DNA of 30,814 nt, from the IMG/VR virus record IMGVR_UViG_3300017719_000099, positions 1 to 30,814 of that record; one strand, given 5' to 3'. Positions 659 through 8,515 of this stretch are shown piece by piece. Position 1 is the stretch's first letter. Every line of letters begins with the position of its first letter. Source of the DNA: a virus. A program made the position numbers and the translations under genes. The notes below the pieces were generated by a model that saw nothing but the letters and a program-made list of their open reading frames with translations, did no database searches and was not told the DNA's origin.

Positions 659-1036
659 TCAACCTAGATCTATCTCTACCTTGATGTCTCCAGCATGCAG
701 ATGCATGTGCTTGTCAGGTGCCTTCAGCCCCGCTCTGTCGAGCAGGTCTTTCGACGCTTCTAATTGCACATACTCACTCTTTGCTGTCCTCGCTAAGTTC
801 GTCACCGTGGATAGGGCTAGCGTTGCACGAGTTCCTAATTCATCCCTTATCCTCTGCATCATATACGCTTGGACGTGTGGGAGAGCTAAAGCCTTGGATG
901 CACTCACTCTTCCACTGTCACCTTCCGCATATCCAGCGACTTGACTTGCGTCTTTTATCGTTCCGCCATTTGCTACGAGGTGTTCAACCAACGCCTCTTG
1001 CTTGCCTGTCAATTTCCGTTCCGTCAAGTCGCCCAT
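659..1036 (-). CDS. terS: Small terminase subunit-like protein
   Basis: The product of 125 aa probably recognises the packaging site and hands DNA to the large terminase. It opens MGDLTERKLTGKQEALVEHL, followed by a helix-turn-helix-like stretch (roughly residues 8-45) in which a T-I-K-D-A helix, A-G-Y-A-E and a helix ending in S-K-A-L-A-L-P-H-V occur. This is the usual arrangement of phage small terminases, which tend to begin L-T-x-K-Q-x. The C-terminal part is helical and ends in a short acidic strand. ATG at 1036 is chosen because GAGGTG lies about 5 nt before it; a GTG at 1057 in frame has no such site. Gene-free structured DNA flanks it on both sides. The assignment rests on fold-like pattern and position, not on a database match. 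Confidence 0.7.
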   Translation of the reverse strand: MGDLTERKLTGKQEALVEHLVANGGTIKDASQVAGYAEGDSGRVSASKALALPHVQAYMMQRIRDELGTRATLALSTVTNLARTAKSEYVQLEASKDLLDRAGLKAPDKHMHLHAGDIKVEIDLG

Positions 1037-1146
1037 TCTACACCTCAATGCAAACACATAATCCTATAACTCGCTTCTGAAGAAGCTCCTTAAGCGGAGT
1101 TTAAGAGGGTTCGTCAACATAAATCAAGTGGCAATTTTGCAACACC

Positions 1147-1555
1147 CCTTACATCCAAGGAATACGCGGCTCACCCGTCCAGGGGACAGGTTCGCCCCGT
1201 TAGGGGCATCATGCCACAAACACATATACAGCACATCCCCAGCCTACGACATGCCTCCAAGCGTCCTCGCCCCTTGGGCTGTGGGCGCGTCGGCATGCGG
1301 CTGGGGTAGGGTAAGCACTCTCACAATTCAAGCAGGGTGTCATAGCCGAAAGCTATTGCAAGGATGCTATTACTGGTCTGGGTGCAAGTGGTCAGGTGTC
1401 GTCAGACTACACGGGCGAAACTTCGTTTCTCCCTAGTTATACCTTGTTGGCGGTCTACCAGTGACAGGCTGATCGCCCGTCACACACTGTCAAGTAATAG
1501 CCCCAGCGAAGCTGGCCTTCGGTCCTTGCAATACCCCATGCGGCTATGACCCAGG
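1147..1555. ncRNA. Candidate large structured RNA (or structured DNA element)
   Basis: This gene-free region consists almost entirely of stems. Long-range helices, all perfect: P1 GTCATAGCCG (1339-1348) with CGGCTATGAC (1541-1550); P2 TATTGCAAGGA (1354-1364) with TCCTTGCAATA (1523-1533); P3 GCTATTACT (1366-1374) with AGTAATAGC (1493-1501). They nest correctly inside one another. Inside P3 are a hairpin at 1405-1438 (GACTA/TAGTT, GGG/CCC, GAAAC/GTTTC) and one at 1461-1483 (GTGAC/GTCAC). Between P3 and P2 on the 3' side are CCAGC-GAA-GCTGG (1503-1515) and a C-TTCG-G tetraloop (1517-1522). The 5' half adds hairpins at 1173-1191, 1194-1207 (GCCCC-GTTA-GGGGC) and 1237-1306 (CCCCAGCC/GGCTGGGG plus CATGCC/GGCATG). 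The transcribed strand is undecided: plus would make it a 5' leader of the gene at 1620, minus a leader of the terminase operon. No known RNA class was recognised. Confidence 0.6.
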
Positions 1556-1578
1556 GGGAAATTGTAGAGAGAGTAGTC

Positions 1579-1607
1579 TCTATAAGTTAAGTAAATCAGC
1601 TATTAAA
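1579..1607 (-). promoter_or_regulatory. Weak candidate promoter pointing into the structured region
   Basis: On the minus strand TTTAAT (1602-1607, 3 of 6 consensus bases) precedes TATAGA (1579-1584) with a 17-bp spacer. If real, it would transcribe the whole structured region as a leader of the small terminase gene. The -10 overlaps an inverted repeat TAGAGA (1565-1570) / TCTCTA (1577-1582), which could be an operator. Confidence 0.25.
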
Positions 1608-1619
1608 GGAGTATAGCAA

Positions 1620-2033
1620 ATGTCTAAAGTATCAAATAAAGCAGTTAAGCAATCAGAAGTATCTTCAAACGTAGAGGCTGTTGCCTCTAACATCAAGGTG
1701 TTGCTAGACAGCATCTATCCTAACCACGCAGATGGCTTGCTAGCCTATGCGCGCGCACGCTTCGTCGAGAACCTAGTCTGGCGCGCAGACAAAGACTTCG
1801 AGTTCCAAGAAGGCAAAGCGGCAGAAGCGCAAGTCAAGTATGACGAAGCGATGTTCATCCAGCGTGCCATCACAGAACAGCAGAACCGTGAGGGCGAAGA
1901 CCAAGGTATGGTCTACGATACACAGGTCGAGCGCTCTCAACGCTGGAATGAACGCATGCAAATTCAGCTTCAGGGCGCATCTGAGTTCCGCGACGCGGCG
2001 CACCTGGCGCTTGAATCACTGTCTCAGGACTAA
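1620..2033 (+). CDS. Unknown early protein, own transcription unit
   Basis: The 137-aa product has no motif I recognise. It is soluble, rich in Ala, Glu and Gln, and mostly predicted helical by eye (for example around residues 55-80 and 105-135), with no membrane segment. ATG at 1620 follows AAAGGAG by about 8 nt. It is the first gene of the plus strand and is closed by a strong terminator six bases after its stop, so it is expressed separately from the operon downstream and probably very early or at high level. Its codon use is more GC-rich (many GCG, CGC, GGC codons) than that of the next genes, which hints at a different origin or strong expression. Confidence 0.75.
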   Translation: MSKVSNKAVKQSEVSSNVEAVASNIKVLLDSIYPNHADGLLAYARARFVENLVWRADKDFEFQEGKAAEAQVKYDEAMFIQRAITEQQNREGEDQGMVYDTQVERSQRWNERMQIQLQGASEFRDAAHLALESLSQD

Positions 2034-2039
2034 CAACAC

Positions 2040-2076
2040 GGGGCCGGGCGGCATTGGCCGCCCAGCCCCTTTTTTT
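2040..2076 (+). terminator. Strong rho-independent terminator
   Basis: GGGGC (2040-2044) and GGGCGGC (2046-2052) pair with GCCGCCC (2057-2063) and GCCCC (2065-2069) around an ATTG loop, followed directly by seven T (2070-2076). It ends the transcript of the gene at 1620-2033. Confidence 0.93.
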
Positions 2077-2101
2077 ATGTCGGTGCTGGACTATTAATCA
2101 G

Positions 2102-2137
2102 ACACCTGTTGACAAGGTGTGTAATAGTTGGTAACAA
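2102..2137 (+). promoter_or_regulatory. Candidate early promoter with overlapping operator-like dyad
   Basis: A perfect TTGACA (2109-2114) is followed at 17 bp by TAACAA (2132-2137), a poor -10. The -35 lies between the arms of an inverted repeat, ACACCT (2102-2107) and AGGTGT (2115-2120), so a bound repressor would block it. It sits just after a strong terminator and just before the long plus-strand operon, where a new promoter is required. Confidence 0.5.
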
Positions 2138-2161
2138 ATAGGACACGAAAGGGACAATAAA

Positions 2162-2254
2162 ATGATTCAGATAATTTTTACAGCACTCCAAGTCGGAGTA
2201 ATCATATCCGCAGTCTATTTAATTCTAATGATTAGCTATGTAATAGGAGGATAA
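2162..2254 (+). CDS. 30-residue single-pass membrane microprotein
   Basis: A short frame starts with ATG at 2162, preceded by AAAGGGAC, and ends at TAA 2252-2254, one base before the next ATG. The product, beginning MIQIIFTALQVGVIISAVYL, is almost wholly hydrophobic and would form one transmembrane helix. The ribosome-binding site of the next gene (GGAGG) lies inside its last codons, so the two are probably translationally coupled. It could instead be a leader whose translation controls the next gene. Function unknown. Confidence 0.55.
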   Translation: MIQIIFTALQVGVIISAVYLILMISYVIGG

Positions 2255-2255
2255 A

Positions 2256-2504
2256 ATGAGAGTAGTATATGAAACCGAGACCTTCCATTTTGAAACCATT
2301 GAAACATTAACACATTTCCTCAAGGAAGAAATGTCATACGAAGACATGGACGTTGACCTGTTGCTCGAAGAAAAGTTCGAGGAAGATGAATACTGCGATG
2401 CTCACGAGAAAACAACGACAATCGTCAGGTTGATAGCTGCTGATGCTGGAGGCTTCACGCTAGCCTATGAGCGCACAGGCATTGAATATGACAACTATTT
2501 ATAG
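2256..2504 (+). CDS. Small acidic unknown protein
   Basis: The 82-aa product is strongly acidic, with Glu/Asp-rich stretches near residues 27-48 (E-E-M-S-Y-E-D-M-D-V-D and E-E-K-F-E-E-D-E). ATG at 2256 is preceded by GGAGGATAAA, a very good ribosome-binding site. Small acidic early phage proteins are often inhibitors or DNA mimics, but there is no direct sign of that here beyond the charge. It is the second cistron after the promoter at 2109. Confidence 0.75.
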   Translation: MRVVYETETFHFETIETLTHFLKEEMSYEDMDVDLLLEEKFEEDEYCDAHEKTTTIVRLIAADAGGFTLAYERTGIEYDNYL

Positions 2505-2513
2505 GAGTATAAA

Positions 2514-2735
2514 ATGAAATCAATACACGAAATCAAATTCCCAGCGCATGGCTCACCTGCTGATCGAGGCAGTGCCGACAAATACTATGGTCGGCCATGC
2601 AATCCACACTGGTGGCCCAATGGAACTTACATGGGGCATCGTGTGCCTGCTGAAGATATGACTGAGGATGAAATCAGTTTGTATAAAGAAGCATACAGAA
2701 ATGAAAAAGATGTAAAGGATTGGGGCGATGAGTAA
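2514..2735 (+). CDS. Small conserved-looking unknown protein
   Basis: The 73-aa product has a polar N-terminus with A-D-R-G-S-A-D-x-Y-Y-G-R-P (about residues 16-28) then N-P-H-W-W-P-N-G-T-Y, a motif pattern that I recall from small phage proteins of unknown role, and an acidic C-terminal half. ATG at 2514 follows AGGAG by 7 nt. Its last codons overlap the start of the antirestriction gene by 8 bp, showing co-transcription and likely coupling. Confidence 0.75.
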   Translation: MKSIHEIKFPAHGSPADRGSADKYYGRPCNPHWWPNGTYMGHRVPAEDMTEDEISLYKEAYRNEKDVKDWGDE

Positions 2736-3606
2736 GTTTACTACAAAAGACTTTGTAAATAAGATTGCAAAGCAAATCGAACAGCTGATGGAAGAACATG
2801 GAACCAACTGGACAAAGCCCTGGATTGGGCAAGGCGGTGGCATCCCATACAATCCATCACGTCAACAACAATACACTGGAGCCAATGTGTTTGGCCTTTG
2901 GATTCAGGGTGCTAACGCTGGATACACATCAAATGAATGGGGAACATACAAACAATGGGAAGCCCTTGGCAAACAAGTAGACAAGGGACAGAAGTCAGAA
3001 GCCTTCTCAATATTCTACACTAAGATAGAACGAGAAGATGCTGATGACTACCACGTTATGCGATTGAGCCGAGTGTTCAATGCCGAACAACTTGCTGGCT
3101 ATGAGCCAGACATTCTCAAAGAAAAAGTAAATGAGGTTCATCAACTAGATGCTGTCGATGCATTCATCGAAAGCATACCATCTGTTGTAAAGACTGGTGG
3201 TAGTCGAGCCTTCTATGATCCAGTAGAAGACTACATAATGATGCCACCAACAAAGGCATTCATTGACACAGAAGATGCGACTGCCACTCAAAGCTATTAT
3301 GCAACGATGTTGCATGAACACGCACACTGGACGGGACACAAGTCCCGCCTGGACAGAATCCCAAACAACCAGGACAAGAAGTCATACGCATACGAAGAGC
3401 TTGTGGCAGAGCTAACTTCTGTGCTGATGTCTGCCCATTTGGGTATAGCCAAGACACCAACAGCAGACCACGCCAAGTATCTAAACTCTTGGCGCCAAGC
3501 AATCCACGATAACCCACGGGTTATTATGAAGGCTATGGCTGATGCGGAAAAAGCAATGAAGCACCTCAACAAATACAGCCAGATTGTGGCAGACAAAGCC
3601 GCTTAA
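2728..3606 (+). CDS. ArdC-like antirestriction protein with zincin domain
   Basis: The 292-aa product joins an ArdC-type ssDNA-binding N-terminal domain (about residues 5-120, including N-W-T-K-P-W, N-P-x-R-x-x-x-Y-x-G-A-N and W-x-T-Y-K-Q-W) to a metallopeptidase-like domain with H-E-H-A-H-W-T-G-H (196-204) and E-E-L-V-A-E-L (223-229), which would supply the two zinc-binding His, the catalytic Glu and the third ligand. In plasmids ArdC protects incoming single-stranded DNA from host restriction, and the domain pair also occurs in phage polyvalent proteins. As an early gene, it fits a role soon after DNA entry. Length is close to that of stand-alone ArdC. Protease activity is inferred from the motif only. 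Confidence 0.88.
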   Translation: MSKFTTKDFVNKIAKQIEQLMEEHGTNWTKPWIGQGGGIPYNPSRQQQYTGANVFGLWIQGANAGYTSNEWGTYKQWEALGKQVDKGQKSEAFSIFYTKIEREDADDYHVMRLSRVFNAEQLAGYEPDILKEKVNEVHQLDAVDAFIESIPSVVKTGGSRAFYDPVEDYIMMPPTKAFIDTEDATATQSYYATMLHEHAHWTGHKSRLDRIPNNQDKKSYAYEELVAELTSVLMSAHLGIAKTPTADHAKYLNSWRQAIHDNPRVIMKAMADAEKAMKHLNKYSQIVADKAA

Positions 3607-3608
3607 TC

Positions 3609-3667
3609 GGGCGTTGTCCACATCCCCGCCCCGCCCATGTGGGGGCGGCGGTTGTGGTCAATCGCCC
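3609..3667. other. Long stem-loop with DnaA-box-like arms
   Basis: The spacer after the ArdC-like gene folds into one long hairpin. GGGCGTTG (3609-3616) pairs with CAA-t-CGCCC (3659-3667), CCACA (3618-3622) with TGTGG (3653-3657), and CCGCCCC (3626-3632) with GGGGCGG (3642-3648). There is no T-run, so it is not a standard terminator. The outer arms contain TTGTCCACA (3614-3622, one change from the DnaA box TTATCCACA) and, inverted, TTGACCACA (3653-3661, two changes). It could be an mRNA processing or pausing structure, or a cruciform origin. Confidence 0.6.
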
Positions 3668-3688
3668 TTCATGTAAAGGAGTAGAAAC

Positions 3689-4009
3689 ATGACACCATCA
3701 CTATCAGACCTAGAAAATATGATGCTCGACCAGTTACGGCAAGGCAGATTAAAAAATGAATTGAGCCAGCTAAAAGTATTGGAAGCAGTTCAGAATGTTG
3801 CACCACAAAATGATCAGCTAAACTTCTTGGCTGTCTTGTATGCAACAGACCCGCACACTCTCAATCAATTTGATGAGGGAGGTATGGTATCGGAGTTGCT
3901 GTATCACAATGTTCGACGACACCTAATCGAGTTCGGTAAAAAGTATATCGAATCAAGTAACGCACACGAAGAAAAGTATGGGGTAGTTCACCCCAGGGAA
4001 TGGAGATAA
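3689..4009 (+). CDS. Unknown helical protein
   Basis: The 106-aa product begins MTPSLSDLENMMLDQLRQG and appears mainly alpha-helical and soluble, with no catalytic or metal-binding motif visible. ATG at 3689 follows AAAGGAGTAGAAAC, a leader nearly identical to that of the gene at 4650. It is the first gene after the long stem-loop at 3609-3667, so its expression could be set by that structure. Function unknown. Confidence 0.75.
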   Translation: MTPSLSDLENMMLDQLRQGRLKNELSQLKVLEAVQNVAPQNDQLNFLAVLYATDPHTLNQFDEGGMVSELLYHNVRRHLIEFGKKYIESSNAHEEKYGVVHPREWR

Positions 4010-4011
4010 AC

Positions 4012-4206
4012 ATGACACAAAACACAATGTTCTTTCGTCGGCACTACGAGTTCTTAGCAGAACAAGTAGGCCCCCTACTATCAACACCAACAGACGCTGA
4101 GCGCCTGGCTGATATGCTGGAGCAAGACAACCCAGCGTTTAAGCGTGGAGTGTTTGTAAGTAAAGCAATCTCCTATTGGGAGAAACGAAACCTGGAGGTA
4201 GAGTAA
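4012..4206 (+). CDS. Small unknown protein
   Basis: The 64-aa product begins MTQNTMFFRRHYEFLAEQVG; its C-terminal part (N-P-A-F-K-R-G-V-F ... Y-W-E-K-R-N) resembles short phage proteins of unknown role. ATG at 4012 is preferred to the in-frame ATG at 4000 because TGGAG lies 6 nt before it. Its coding sequence begins just after the stop of the previous gene, and its stop overlaps the next start as TAATG, so it is translated as part of the operon. Confidence 0.7.
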   Translation: MTQNTMFFRRHYEFLAEQVGPLLSTPTDAERLADMLEQDNPAFKRGVFVSKAISYWEKRNLEVE

Positions 4207-4478
4207 TGATTGTTTATACATTTAAGTTTGGTCAGTTAGATTCATTTGTTCGCCGCACTTTTTCTAGCAAGACAGTTGCAGAAAGAGAGCGTCGTAAATA
4301 TGCAAGAGTTCTTAACCCATCATCAAGAGATGAAAGAACCTGGTGGCTTAATACGCACCCGCTAGAGACAGTGTCTCTTGATTACAAGCATGAGATTGTA
4401 GAGTTCATGGAAGACATTTCAAATGAGCATCGAAATGATCTGAACAAAAGAATAGGGGTGAATTACTGGAATGGCTAA
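4206..4478 (+). CDS. Small unknown protein
   Basis: The 90-aa product begins MIVYTFKFGQLDSFVRRTF and has a basic middle with several Arg and a more acidic C-terminal helix (E-I-V-E-F-M-E-D). ATG at 4206 shares TAATG with the preceding stop and has GGAGGT about 7 nt upstream; a longer frame from 4176 would bury that site. No domain is recognised. Confidence 0.72.
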   Translation: MIVYTFKFGQLDSFVRRTFSSKTVAERERRKYARVLNPSSRDERTWWLNTHPLETVSLDYKHEIVEFMEDISNEHRNDLNKRIGVNYWNG

Positions 4479-4653
4479 GAGGAGCAAGAAGAACACGATC
4501 CAGCCACAACAATGTGGCAAGTGCGGGTTGGTGCATGACAACTGGGTCATGCAACTGACCCGCATTGAACCAGAGGAGCATCAGATATTGTGCGACCCTT
4601 GCTACCTCGCAGAGTTTGCGAAACCCATCAGAGAATACGGAGTAGAAACATGA
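4471..4653 (+). CDS. Small zinc-ribbon-like protein
   Basis: The 60-aa product has a basic N-terminus (M-A-K-R-S-K-K-N) and two Cys pairs, C-G-K-C at residues 15-18 and C-D-P-C at 41-44. Two C-x2-C knuckles about 22 residues apart would bind one zinc ion in a ribbon fold. Such small proteins usually bind nucleic acid or another protein. The start overlaps the previous gene by 8 bp and the stop overlaps the next start as ATGA. The partner is unknown. Confidence 0.72.
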   Translation: MAKRSKKNTIQPQQCGKCGLVHDNWVMQLTRIEPEEHQILCDPCYLAEFAKPIREYGVET

Positions 4654-4838
4654 ACATGGATAAAGGTAGATACGACACAGCTATGCACATGCTGAATAGC
4701 TTATGCGACTTATTTGAAAGGGTCGCTGTAAAAGAATGGAACACTGAAGAATCTTTTGGTCTTAATACATTTACAGAATTAGAAGCCATCAGACATAAGG
4801 TCGATGAAAGAAACAAAGGTATAGACAATGACCAGTAA
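4650..4838 (+). CDS. Small unknown protein
   Basis: The 62-aa product begins MNMDKGRYDTAMHMLNSLCD and seems to be two amphipathic helices with an acidic face. ATG at 4650 has GGAG 7 nt upstream and overlaps the previous stop; the upstream extension of this frame is coded within the zinc-ribbon gene and has no ribosome-binding site. The end overlaps the nuclease gene start by 11 bp. Function unknown. Confidence 0.68.
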   Translation: MNMDKGRYDTAMHMLNSLCDLFERVAVKEWNTEESFGLNTFTELEAIRHKVDERNKGIDNDQ

Positions 4839-5181
4839 AAGTAAACAGAAGGGAACATATCACGAGAACTATTTTGTGAAGCTGTTCAAGGAATGGGGCA
4901 TCAAGGTGCGTAAGCAACCGCTATCAGGTGCGCTTGGGGGTGAATACTCTGGCGACCTGGTCGTGACCATTGGAGGAGAGGACTACATCGCCGAGGTTAA
5001 ATACCGCAAAGAGAAAGGCTTCCCCTCCCCCTTCACAGTCTTAAAGAATCGAGATGTTGCGCTGTTCAAGCTGGGAAAAACAGAGCCAGACTCACCCAAA
5101 TGGGTGCTGATTATACCAGACTATATTGTAGAAAAAATACTAAACAAAGGACGCCATGATGATAGACCAAAAGGAAGTTAA
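4828..5181 (+). CDS. PD-(D/E)XK nuclease, Holliday-resolvase-like
   Basis: The 117-aa product has the layout of small PD-(D/E)XK nucleases: E13 in a first helix, D43 in S-G-D-L-V-V, and E56-V-K58 in the next strand, with a basic N-terminus (K-S-K-Q-K-G). Family members such as Hjc-type resolvases cut branched DNA. Here the likely task is resolving junctions made during recombination-dependent replication or before packaging. The gene is followed with overlap by the DnaA-like gene. The specific substrate cannot be read from the sequence, and a VRR-NUC or restriction-like role is also possible. Confidence 0.78.
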   Translation: MTSKSKQKGTYHENYFVKLFKEWGIKVRKQPLSGALGGEYSGDLVVTIGGEDYIAEVKYRKEKGFPSPFTVLKNRDVALFKLGKTEPDSPKWVLIIPDYIVEKILNKGRHDDRPKGS

Positions 5182-5464
5182 AAACATTCGAATGCATGAA
5201 TATGTCAGAGAGTTTTGCGATGAACATAATGTTGAGTTCACATCAATTACAGAACGCAGACGAAACAGAAACTGGGTAATACAGTTGCGCCAAAAATTGT
5301 TCTATGAACTACACATCAGAGGACACTCACTGCCAGAGATAGGAGCGTTCCTAAACAGAGACCACACTACAGTCCTATGGGGAAAGCGACAGCATTTGAA
5401 ACGCATTACAAAAGAAAACAGACGAGAGAAAAGGAGAAAGAGAAATGAACTTCGATCAACGTGA
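5156..5464 (+). CDS. DnaA domain IV-like DNA-binding protein
   Basis: The 102-aa product carries the signature of the C-terminal DNA-binding domain of DnaA: S-L-P-E-I-G-A-F-L-N (58-67) followed by R-D-H-T-T-V (68-73), the loop and helix that read the DnaA box, then a very basic tail (K-R-I-T-K-E-N-R-R-E-K-R-R-K-R). The AAA+ ATPase part of DnaA is absent. A second ATG at 5159 is equally possible. The protein could mark the phage origin, recruit host replication proteins, or compete with host DnaA. It overlaps both neighbours, the nuclease upstream and an unknown gene downstream. Confidence 0.85.
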   Translation: MMIDQKEVKNIRMHEYVREFCDEHNVEFTSITERRRNRNWVIQLRQKLFYELHIRGHSLPEIGAFLNRDHTTVLWGKRQHLKRITKENRREKRRKRNELRST

Positions 5465-5972
5465 GCATACAATTCATAACAATTTTGTGTCAAAGATGGG
5501 CAAGCTATACGGCCCACCAAACAACATCAAACATGACTCTGATGCACAACGTATTTACAGTCAGGAGTTGCGCCGAGCAATCAACAACAGACTGCCAACA
5601 GACGTAACAGATGACACATTCAAACTACTGCTAGACAAAGTGTGGGACAGGTGTGTTCAAGAAAACACTTACCGCGTTTGGTTCTTACCAGCGATGGTAT
5701 CCAAACACGCATCTAAAGTTGCGTCAGAATTTATCTCTAAACAAAAATCTTTAGATGCAAAGTTCAATCTTACTTATGAGGGGCAGGAGAAAGAACGCCC
5801 CAGGGGTGACAAGTCCAGGCCAGAAACAATGGGGTGGACGATTGAGAAATGTGATGAGCATATCGCCATGACTAAACAACTGATGCAAGATGGAAAGCTC
5901 AACATTCATATGGGCAACACCCTGATTCGCATCCCAATGAAAGCAAAAGAAAGGTTACTTGGAAATGTTTAA
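5445..5972 (+). CDS. Unknown protein, possible replication accessory factor
   Basis: The 175-aa product starts at ATG 5445 after AGGAGAAAGAG. Its middle part (residues 50-95) has L-P-T-D-V-T-D-D-T-F-K-L-L-L-D-K-V-W followed by a conserved-looking W-F-L-P-A-M helix, a pattern loosely like phage proteins that load helicase or organise the replisome; I cannot confirm that. The second half is charged. Overlap by 20 bp with the DnaA-like gene suggests that both act in the same process, but this is inference. Confidence 0.72.
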   Translation: MNFDQREHTIHNNFVSKMGKLYGPPNNIKHDSDAQRIYSQELRRAINNRLPTDVTDDTFKLLLDKVWDRCVQENTYRVWFLPAMVSKHASKVASEFISKQKSLDAKFNLTYEGQEKERPRGDKSRPETMGWTIEKCDEHIAMTKQLMQDGKLNIHMGNTLIRIPMKAKERLLGNV

Positions 5973-6186
5973 TGCAGTTATTTTAATGTGTGCAATCGTA
6001 GAATTTAATGTTCCATCTACTAAATGCACCAACGTAGATTTGGGTCTTCATCGGACAAAGAGTCAGTGCGAAACAGTTCTAGATCTTGGGAAAGATAGGA
6101 TGATGAGAATTTATATTGAAGAGGACAAAGACAATTTTGTGCTTATGAAAGAAGGTTTTTGCTGGAAAGAAGACACGCCAAGCTAG
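5965..6186 (+). CDS. Small Cys-containing, possibly exported protein
   Basis: The 73-aa product begins MFNAVILMCAIVEFN, a short hydrophobic start resembling a weak signal or membrane anchor, and has further Cys residues at C21, C35 and C66 that could form disulphides outside the cytoplasm. ATG at 5965 is preferred; an in-frame TTG at 5959 is possible. It overlaps the end of the previous gene by 8 bp. I recall similar short proteins in marine phages without known role. Confidence 0.6.
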   Translation: MFNAVILMCAIVEFNVPSTKCTNVDLGLHRTKSQCETVLDLGKDRMMRIYIEEDKDNFVLMKEGFCWKEDTPS

Positions 6187-6246
6187 TAAATATAGCTGGA
6201 CAAACGCAGTAGAAATGACTAGATTTGATAGTGAAAGGGATCAAAC

Positions 6247-7071
6247 ATGACAGATATGAACGAAAAAGCAGAGGACGAATTGCGCCGACAAACCATTGGA
6301 GGTAGCTGTGCATTACGAATAATGGATGGTGACTGGCACAAACTTTGGCTAGACAAGATGGGGTATCGCGGACGCGATGACCTGTCCGATGTCTTGCCCG
6401 TGCAGTTAGGCATCTGGACAGAGCCATTTAACATTAGCCTGTTCAAGAAACACATGGGTGTGCAGGTTCAAGAGCAAGTGAGATACCATTACAAATGGGG
6501 ATCAGTGCCTTGCCGTGGCACACTGGACGGTGAGTTTATGTATAACGGAGAGCGCATGGGGCTGGAGGTAAAGCATACCTTTGAGATGAACACTATGCGC
6601 AAACAGCTAGAGCGTTACATGCCACAGCTACAGCTATACATGGAAGTTGCCAAGCTAAATTATATGTATTTCGCAAACCTGTTTGGCAACAGGCGCTATG
6701 AATATGTAAAGGTAGCAAGAGACCAGGGATACATAGACACAATGTATGTCCACCTCAAAGAGTTCTGGTCATATGTAGAACAAGAAAAAGAACCGCCACA
6801 ATCAATGCCACACATCACAACAGGCATAGATCAGATTGCTATCGACGATATGGTGGCGCGGGACGCACGACAAGACAACGAGTTTATTTATCAGGCGCAT
6901 GAGTATGTCTCGACAATGCAAGCCGCAAAGGAGCATGAGTCTGCTAAGAAGCAACTCAAAGCAATGGTAGCAACAAACGAAAGAGAAGTTTATTCGGACA
7001 TTGTTACCCTCAAACGAGCCAAGAACGGCTCACTACGCATCAACGTAAACAAGGAGTATACAGATGAGTAA
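6247..7071 (+). CDS. YqaJ-like PD-(D/E)XK exonuclease
   Basis: The 274-aa product matches the layout of YqaJ/lambda Exo-type viral recombinases: I-G-G-S-C (17-21) near the start, E59 in G-I-W-T-E, D94 in G-T-L-D-G, E107-V-K109, and a following P-Q-L-Q-L-Y helix at 126-131. Enzymes of this family chew one strand of duplex DNA to leave a single strand for annealing. The nearby putative annealing protein and SSB-like protein complete the usual recombination set. ATG at 6247 follows AAAGGGA. About 60 bp of gene-free DNA precede it. It is a full-length member by size. Confidence 0.87.
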   Translation: MTDMNEKAEDELRRQTIGGSCALRIMDGDWHKLWLDKMGYRGRDDLSDVLPVQLGIWTEPFNISLFKKHMGVQVQEQVRYHYKWGSVPCRGTLDGEFMYNGERMGLEVKHTFEMNTMRKQLERYMPQLQLYMEVAKLNYMYFANLFGNRRYEYVKVARDQGYIDTMYVHLKEFWSYVEQEKEPPQSMPHITTGIDQIAIDDMVARDARQDNEFIYQAHEYVSTMQAAKEHESAKKQLKAMVATNEREVYSDIVTLKRAKNGSLRINVNKEYTDE

Positions 7072-7297
7072 GGACAACGAAACACAGAATGAAAAAATTC
7101 TTTCCTACTTGGAAGAAGGCAACAGCATCTCGCCAATGGATGCACTCAACCACTTTGGTTGCTTTCGATTGGCTAGCCGCATACACGACCTGCGATCAGA
7201 TGGGAAACTAATCGAGACTGTCCGCAAGGCAGGTAAAAAATATGCTGAATACAAACTGGCCGATGCGGGAGTAGACGCATCGACCAGCACCGTGTGA
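7064..7297 (+). CDS. Winged-helix type HTH protein
   Basis: The 77-aa product has I-L-S-Y-L-E-E-G-N-S-I-S-P-M-D-A-L at 13-29 and F-R-L-A-S-R-I-H-D-L-R-S-D-G at 34-47, the typical layout of the short phage helix-turn-helix proteins that sort variable sites or regulate genes. A beta-wing-like K-K-Y-A-E-Y-K-L follows. It overlaps the exonuclease gene by 8 bp, with GGAG upstream. It may regulate this operon or assist recombination; the target is unknown. Confidence 0.78.
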   Translation: MSKDNETQNEKILSYLEEGNSISPMDALNHFGCFRLASRIHDLRSDGKLIETVRKAGKKYAEYKLADAGVDASTSTV

Positions 7298-7311
7298 AAG
7301 GAGAAACCACA

Positions 7312-7755
7312 GTGACTAATGATAACATGAAAGTATGGGATAGTGTTGCACAATCTGACGGGCAGTATCTCAAAAAGGTGAGCTTTGGTTCACGTTCATT
7401 TACCAGCATCGACCCGATGTATCAGGTGCGGGAGGCAACACGCGCCTTCGGCCCAGTAGGACAGGGCTGGGGATGGACTTCAGAAACAGAAACAATCACC
7501 ATGTCGAATGGTGATGTCGCATTCCTGGCACACGTTACAGTGTGGCACGGATGCAATGACAACAGCTTCGGGCCGTTTACTGGATGCCGCACCTTCTTCA
7601 AGAAGGAACGGATTGCAGAAGACGCACCCAAGATGGCTGTCACAGATGGGCTGACCAAGGCATTGTCGCACCTTGGTTTCAATGCTGATGTGTTCCTTGG
7701 AGAACACGACAACAAATATGCGGCAGATAGCAAACCTACGAATGGAGAATGGTAA
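7312..7755 (+). CDS. Putative Rad52-like single-strand annealing protein
   Basis: The 147-aa product ends its fold with E-D-A-P-K-M-A-V-T-D-G-L-T-K-A-L-S-H-L-G (103-122), closely like the T-D-A-x-K-R-A-L-x-x-F-G helix of Rad52-superfamily annealing proteins. Such proteins coat resected ssDNA and pair it with complementary strands. The setting, with a YqaJ-like exonuclease just upstream and an SSB-like protein just downstream, supports this. GTG at 7312 is chosen because AAAGGAG lies 8 nt before it; the in-frame GTG at 7294 would precede that site. It is shorter than most Rad52-like phage proteins, so the match needs a structure-based test. Confidence 0.68.
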   Translation: MTNDNMKVWDSVAQSDGQYLKKVSFGSRSFTSIDPMYQVREATRAFGPVGQGWGWTSETETITMSNGDVAFLAHVTVWHGCNDNSFGPFTGCRTFFKKERIAEDAPKMAVTDGLTKALSHLGFNADVFLGEHDNKYAADSKPTNGEW

Positions 7756-8123
7756 TGAGCCAATACGATAACACAGATAGCGGAGCGGTATTCCCACCCC
7801 GTGACAACCACCAGATGATCTTGTCTGGCAAGGCAAACAACAACGGCAAGGACTCGCAAGTCATTGTCACAAAGTCCACACTTCCTGATGGGCGTGTAAT
7901 TATGGACATCTACGAGAAGACAGGGACACTCTTCCCCAATGAAAAGAAGACAAGTGACAAAGCCCCTGACTATACAGGGCCAATCGGAACACGCCGAGTG
8001 GCCGCATGGCGCAAGTCAAAAGACAATTTGAGCTACATGTCACTGAGCTTTAGCGACAAGATGGAGGGCGGAGCATCCAATGGACAACAACAGCAACCAA
8101 TCGACGACTCAATCCCGTTCTAA
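7755..8123 (+). CDS. SSB-like single-stranded DNA-binding protein
   Basis: The 122-aa product has a beta-rich body (residues 18-100) and a Gln/Gly-rich linker leading to a terminal D-D-S-I-P-F (117-122). Bacterial SSB proteins end in D-D-D-I-P-F, the tail that docks partner proteins such as RecO, PriA and exonuclease I. The body also resembles short DUF736-type proteins (N-L-S-Y-M-S-L-S-F), so the OB fold is likely but not certain. ATG at 7755 shares TAATG with the previous stop and has GGAG 7 nt upstream. Probable role: protect ssDNA during replication and annealing. Confidence 0.7.
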   Translation: MSQYDNTDSGAVFPPRDNHQMILSGKANNNGKDSQVIVTKSTLPDGRVIMDIYEKTGTLFPNEKKTSDKAPDYTGPIGTRRVAAWRKSKDNLSYMSLSFSDKMEGGASNGQQQQPIDDSIPF

Positions 8124-8295
8124 GTTGCTAACGATCGAAGAGGTGGGGGCGATATTAGCCGCTCCCCCTCAAGACGTTAAGAAACTGTGTCGGAAATATG
8201 GCGTGCCTGTGGTAAAAATAGGGCATAAGATACGAATGACAAACGAGAGCCTTGAAGACCTGATCAGAAAGATGACGGTGCAATATGTCAGATGA
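8080..8295 (+). CDS. Excisionase/MerR-type HTH protein
   Basis: The 71-aa product has L-L-T-I-E-E-V-G-A-I-L (16-26) and V-P-V-V-K-I-G-H-K-I-R-M (42-53), the pattern of small DNA-binding proteins of the excisionase family. No integrase is present, so it is more likely a regulator than an excisionase. ATG at 8080 has GGAG 6 nt upstream but lies 44 bp inside the SSB-like gene in another frame, so the start overlaps the codons for the SSB tail. It overlaps the next gene by 11 bp. Confidence 0.72.
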   Translation: MDNNSNQSTTQSRSKLLTIEEVGAILAAPPQDVKKLCRKYGVPVVKIGHKIRMTNESLEDLIRKMTVQYVR

Positions 8296-8515
8296 TGAAA
8301 AGTTTGAGATGGAAAAGCCTTCTGAAACACCAGACCTGTGTTACATACGACCATCGCCAATGCGTCGCTTTCCCGCAGAAATGTGCGTAAAGTATGGGAA
8401 TGAATTTTTTGTGGTGGTAGTCACACAGAGTCAGCTGGAAAACATTGTCCAGTTAGGCTTAAAGTATATGAAAGAGTTTGATAAGCGTCCCGTCGAAGAC
8501 GTAGACGTAGAGTAA
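8285..8515 (+). CDS. Small acidic unknown protein, last early gene
   Basis: The 76-aa product begins MSDDEKFEMEKPSETPDLCY and ends in an acidic tail (V-E-D-V-D-V-E). The middle (F-F-V-V-V-V-T-Q-S-Q-L-E-N-I) could form a strand and a helix. No motif is recognised. It is the last cistron of the plus-strand operon and is followed within six bases by a strong terminator. Confidence 0.72.
   Translation: MSDDEKFEMEKPSETPDLCYIRPSPMRRFPAEMCVKYGNEFFVVVVTQSQLENIVQLGLKYMKEFDKRPVEDVDVE

Follow-up and report, generated by a model that had tools for sequence, protein, structure and literature searches.

The virus record analysed here, hereafter the window (30,814 bases, numbered throughout over the whole record), carries a large base-paired structure between the gene of the terminase small subunit (TerS) and a rightward gene for a 137-aa protein. 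We read this structure, with a probability of roughly 45%, as a selectively maintained regulatory element of an insulated one-gene unit, likely an RNA, that controls translation of the unit gene. What comparison with relatives shows is conserved pairing, a constant location, linkage to that gene and, outside the lineages of the window and of the Pelagibacter phage Hodr, a G-U bias in the pairing. Somewhat more tentatively still, we propose a new class of phage regulators: a giant, fast-evolving hairpin for which the 5′ end of a gene would have been copied in inverted, non-coding form. Its antisense arm would be selected for G-U-tolerant RNA pairing, and the hairpin would control one small phage protein. 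Structure and position would be conserved across a marine clade to which an isolated SAR11 phage belongs, and the window would hold a branched variant withdrawn from the gene start. What we consider new is this class of hairpins, seen as a pattern of structure and evolution; the function that we give it is a proposal.

Leftward genes of the window encode the small and large terminase subunits and a podovirus-type head-tail connector, and rightward genes (1620-8515) an ArdC-like anti-restriction protein, a RecE-like exonuclease and an exonuclease/ERF-type protein. Besides its recombination and anti-restriction genes, this 30.8-kb phage shows no DNA or RNA polymerase and no replication initiator among the ten proteins scanned. 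A tRNA/tmRNA search of the window returned none, and DNA similarity to known phages was limited to short, chance-level matches of about 35 nt. A second gap with no convincing gene lies at 433-660, between TerS and the next late gene. The features discussed below are listed in Table 1. The block in front of TerS (TTGACGAACCCTCTTAAACTCCG plus the TGCAA/TTGCA dyad) is also kept, 85-93% identical, in some relatives that have no hairpin; it is likely the late promoter with its operator.

Table 1. Features of the window around the structured element (strand "." where no strand is assigned).
Feature	Position	Strand	Evidence
Terminase small subunit (TerS), first late gene	662..1057	−	PHROG 2538 and 51
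Conserved block: TerS (late) promoter-like TTGATT-17-TTAAAC and TGCAA/TTGCA dyad	1095..1141	−	85-93% DNA identity in relatives, upstream-sequence listing
Whole structured element	1143..1584	.	Fold z-scores; covariation in six orthologs
Two small hairpins, 1173-1191 and 1194-1207	1173..1207	.	Folds
Second hairpin, apical 1262-1286 strongly conserved among orthologs	1237..1306	.	Compensatory changes 1254/1293, 1258/1289, 1270/1278
Core branched hairpin, basal helix 1318-1329/1559-1571 then three long-range helices	1318..1571	.	Exact complementarity, compensatory changes, consensus fold
Local hairpin inside core; pairs around 1413-1433 covary	1405..1438	.	Compensatory changes 1419/1427, 1421/1425
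Local hairpin on an insertion absent from L002, not conserved	1461..1483	.	Alignment with L002 (nearest relative)
Unit gene, 137-aa helical protein; Shine-Dalgarno about 1607-1611	1620..2033	+	ORF, conserved in orthologs
Intrinsic terminator-like GC-rich stem with T-run directly after unit gene	2040..2077	+	Sequence
Promoter-like TTGACA-17-TAACAA, putatively for next early operon	2109..2137	+	Sequence

A preliminary description of this region had proposed three nested long-range helices with no mismatch, and these are indeed exact and nested (1339-1348/1541-1550, 10 of 10 pairs; 1354-1364/1523-1533, 11 of 11; 1366-1374/1493-1501, 9 of 9); the local hairpins that it placed at 1405-1438, 1461-1483, 1173-1191, 1194-1207 and 1237-1306 all fold. 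Comparison of both strands with shuffled sequence, the check that it suggested, showed folding better than that of dinucleotide shuffles (z −3.3 to −5.6): −3.27 (+) and −4.18 (−) for 1147-1555, −3.77 (+) and −4.88 (−) for 1147-1620, and −3.76 (+) and −5.59 (−) for 1313-1585. Its end at 1555 proved too short, since the basal helix of the consensus fold extends the element further. As for the TTCG tetraloop that it saw at 1517-1522, TTCG is present at 1518-1521, but in the local fold CTTCGG does not close into a tetraloop, the hairpin there being formed by 1503-1507/1511-1515. That the element belongs to no known class is in line with a search of the window with the Rfam 15 covariance models, which gave no match at the gathering cut-off or at relaxed E-values; the same search of 12 relatives matched no family, GOLLD, ROOL and other phage RNAs included. 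When the window region is simply aligned as a palindrome, its score of 112 is within the shuffled range, so that the evidence in the window consists of fold z-scores and covariation and not of an inverted-repeat score; the orthologs L002 and L005 score 221 and 236, above the null maximum of 187.

Searches with TerS in viral contigs, together with a motif scan, provided five distinct orthologs of the element (L002, L005, L172, L173 and L174). The preliminary description had staked its reading on covarying changes in the helices, and pairing is conserved both relative to L002 and across the six orthologous sequences. Relative to L002 (85% identical), eight pairs changed on both sides and still pair, two changed on one side and still pair, and two broke; the compensatory changes in the core are 1344/1545, 1357/1530 and 1358/1529. 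In the six-sequence alignment, 29 of the 72 pairs covary, compared with at most 4 after sliding the partners by 1-3 columns, the six sequences being split into two sub-groups so that these counts are not independent events; 93.4% of the cells are paired, compared with 33-41% when the partners are slid. Compensatory changes exceed the shuffled and the slid controls. The pairing in the window lineage is real, and it is compatible with RNA or DNA and with either strand: the core fold energies of the two strands differ by only about 1-7 kcal/mol, the early strand being the more stable in five of the six sequences and the TerS strand in that of the window. Two pairs of hairpin 1173-1191 covary in this alignment, and hairpin 1194-1207 is also found in L002. 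The tip of the second hairpin (1262-1286; GCCCACAGNCCAAGG..CGAGGACG on the minus strand) is far better conserved in sequence than the remaining element, and the motif scan found it in six viral stretches; this tip may be a protein-binding site.

Among relatives, the structure takes the form of a giant hairpin. An inverted repeat scoring at least 180 lies upstream of TerS in 95 of 127 distinct related regions, compared with 10 of the 837 control windows taken within these loci (highest control score 215; Markov-resampled regions, at most 187). Stems reach up to 412 aligned positions (L007), and many relatives have a single long, mostly unbranched stem. In the isolate Pelagibacter phage EXVC031P Hodr, the strongest repeat of the genome, at 894, sits at the TerS junction, the next one away from it scoring 189. 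The 95 hairpins fall into 49 groups with no blastn similarity to one another, which means that structure and place were retained and sequence was not. One arm takes in the start codon of the unit gene at 48 of 64 loci and then contains the first 27-295 nt of the gene; in the window lineage the start codon is outside the arms, which end before the Shine-Dalgarno sequence. Our literature search on a hairpin element upstream of TerS found nothing.

Repeat-scan scores of HTVC010P, HTVC202P, MEP301 and BcepC6B were judged to be compositional noise; the junction alignment of HTVC010P contains 107 transversion mismatches, with a weak fold for 1.2 kb. About 21 of 163 contigs stop at most about 265 nt upstream of TerS, compared with about 8 on the other side; contigs ending just upstream of TerS include L003, L009, L012, L023, L037, L049, L061, L074, L091 and L097, and such ends probably result from the giant repeat breaking short-read assembly. 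A like hairpin arrangement was also seen in contigs binned into marine archaeal and bacterial metagenome-assembled genomes (L175-L179), which are probably mis-binned phage contigs.

The way the arms evolve bears on what is maintained. Comparison of related phages, 26 pairs in all, showed 68 base pairs that had switched from one Watson-Crick pair to another on both sides; single changes numbered 68 between Watson-Crick and mismatch and 49 between Watson-Crick and G-U. At a divergence of a few percent, 68 double changes are beyond chance expectation: the arms co-evolve. We also tallied the two transition mismatches, G-U and A-C, on the strand-symmetric DNA alignment. When read on the TerS strand, which is antisense to the unit gene, G-U exceeds A-C in 36 of the 47 informative groups (358:180), and within the coding part only the tally is 340:96, where flank composition predicts a ratio of about 1.3. 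Strand mutation bias could be a partial source of this excess. G-U bias is slight in the Hodr clade and absent or reversed in the window lineage; since the latter favours neither strand clearly, we dropped the view that the TerS-strand bias is universal. Mismatches are equally frequent at all three codon positions, and the second arm is therefore no coding copy.

The gene that accompanies the hairpin encodes, in most located cases, a protein of 118-207 aa. AlphaFold predicts helices at 16-32, 42-91 and 98-136 for the protein of the window (pLDDT 86), and a short helix and then two long helices is the layout predicted for each of two unit proteins unrelated in sequence (pLDDT 86 and 90). Unit-protein families (window 1620-2033; L164:3920-4327; L084:3196-3636) have no profile similarity to one another, homology between them not being significant in profile comparison, and two of them have this same predicted layout. 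Comparison of the unit protein with Pfam, PADLOC and PHROGs gave nothing convincing, and PDB and viral fold searches no match at E ≤ 0.001; given its fast divergence in sequence, it is possibly an arms-race protein. A terminator follows 56 of the 89 located unit genes; the consensus terminator scan lists the one of the window only in its minus-strand form. The TTGACA boxes of the next operon are alike in five orthologs, that of the window (2109-2137) being missing from the stricter promoter scan. The TerS promoter generally lies between the hairpin and TerS, and in the Hodr clade inside the far end of the hairpin; with the late promoter in these places, we rejected the hairpin as leader of the TerS mRNA. 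With its own terminator and separate promoter-like sequences on either side, the unit therefore looks insulated, and the succession of unit gene and terminator is present in the window and its orthologs. A unit gene with no hairpin occurs at 4 of 32 loci, including the window's own sequence; the reverse figure, hairpins with a unit gene (90 of 95), is partly circular, as the gene set was collected from hairpin loci.

From the maintained pairing, the tie to the gene start, the insulation and the antisense-strand G-U bias, we infer RNA-level control of the unit gene, and with it transcription of the element, a strand of action and regulation. A unit made of hairpin, small helical protein gene and terminator would stand between late promoter and early operon in a marine podovirus-like phage clade, and the element, most likely as RNA, would set the timing or the occurrence of translation of the unit gene. 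In most relatives the hairpin spans the ribosome-binding site and first codons of this gene, one arm providing, on the TerS strand, a perfect antisense of the mRNA start. A read-through transcript of the full repeat would lock the start of the unit gene in a duplex; alternatively, a hairpin made from the antisense strand would bind the mRNA by base pairing, making it a target for RNase III. In the window lineage, whose branched hairpin ends about 35 nt before the Shine-Dalgarno sequence, the element might be a structured leader or a separate antisense-strand RNA, with no direct occlusion. Counting against RNA control, this lineage has neither a clear strand preference nor a TerS-strand G-U excess; our search for a promoter of RNA spanning the whole hairpin found no convincing candidate. 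One has to keep in mind that a structure conserved without its sequence escapes homology searches, which may explain its absence from Rfam despite its presence in most sampled phages of the clade. If acting as RNA, these hairpins would be the bacterial-virus counterpart of gene-derived fold-back RNAs, with many natural replicates for how long stems arise and persist; the isolate Hodr makes the hairpin hypothesis testable.

The element could also act as DNA, being a replication origin, a single-strand origin, a cruciform or a pac site for the adjoining terminase, a possibility that the preliminary description had partly raised and that we find rather unlikely. The position next to TerS, pairing about equally conserved on both strands in the window lineage and the absence, among the scanned proteins, of any polymerase or replication initiator would all suit such a role. 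However, six relatives with an orthologous TerS (L004, L013, L014, L016, L019 and L021) have no sizeable repeat in 1-1.9 kb, so that the hairpin is not needed for packaging or replication, whereas a pac site or origin would be expected in all relatives that share the terminase. The hairpin goes instead with one small gene, often overlapping its start, and the one-strand G-U excess fits single-strand, RNA-like pairing, although a hairpin of single-stranded DNA could tolerate G-T too.

The very long, near-perfect duplexes, with no sequence conserved between groups, indicate that length and pairing matter and not the letters, as would hold for a trans-acting hairpin RNA that occupies host RNase III or some other host factor, as a decoy or sponge, and borders the gene by chance; this is improbable, as the arms follow the 5′ end of the neighbouring gene in those 48 of 64 loci, which is needless for a general decoy. 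No less improbable is a mutational by-product with little or no function, in which an inverted duplication would be homogenised by template switching between the arms. Template switching in DNA replication can create and maintain hairpins and yield double changes (PMC8794818), the adjacent double change 1357-1358/1529-1530 resembles such an event, and there are known cases elsewhere of long inverted repeats that run into coding sequence (PMC6649704); yet the process would need to have struck a single place again and again, in 49 sequence groups, while sparing nearly all the rest of those loci, and by itself it predicts no strand-specific G-U excess. We give very little credence to kinship with the ornate phage RNAs (GOLLD/ROOL type) or with a put-type antiterminator leader, which size, phage setting and leader position had suggested, because neither the window nor 12 relatives match Rfam, many relatives have one long, mostly unbranched stem unlike the multi-domain ornate RNAs, and no feature of put-type antiterminators was found, a strong terminator standing right after the single downstream gene; what stands of the preliminary interpretation is a large, evolutionarily maintained paired element in no Rfam family.

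An RNA hairpin controlling the unit gene would have several partial counterparts. Phage lambda OOP and P22 sar are phage cis-encoded antisense RNAs, and the likeness lies in a phage RNA, putative here, that is complementary to the site where translation of an adjacent gene begins; here, however, the antisense stretch forms one side of a hairpin that can run to several hundred base pairs, the opposite arm repeating the gene start in inverted, degenerate form, and the arms of the window lineage stop short of the gene. The type I toxin-antitoxin system hok/sok, with its short membrane peptide, resembles our unit in having a small monocistronic gene and control of its translation start by RNA structure or antisense (putative here), but the unit protein is soluble-looking, helical and mostly 118-207 aa long, the antisense lies within a giant fold-back, and we found no short hydrophobic toxin peptide, the 137-aa protein being predicted as long helices. 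GOLLD, ROOL and OLE are large structured ornate RNAs of unknown biological role (PMC12286853); our element would share with them a large structured bacterial or phage RNA, but it is conserved by pairing and place instead of sequence and in relatives consists mostly of a single long stem. The mitochondrial genes of nematomorphs contain coding palindromes, likewise long inverted repeats that overlap coding sequence, in which both arms encode protein (PMC6649704), whereas the second arm of the phage hairpin has no codon-position pattern. Finally, RNA hairpins produced by template switching (PMC8794818) likewise have long stems with paired double changes, but the element described here is found time and again at one gene start within a phage clade, and one strand has an excess of G-U.
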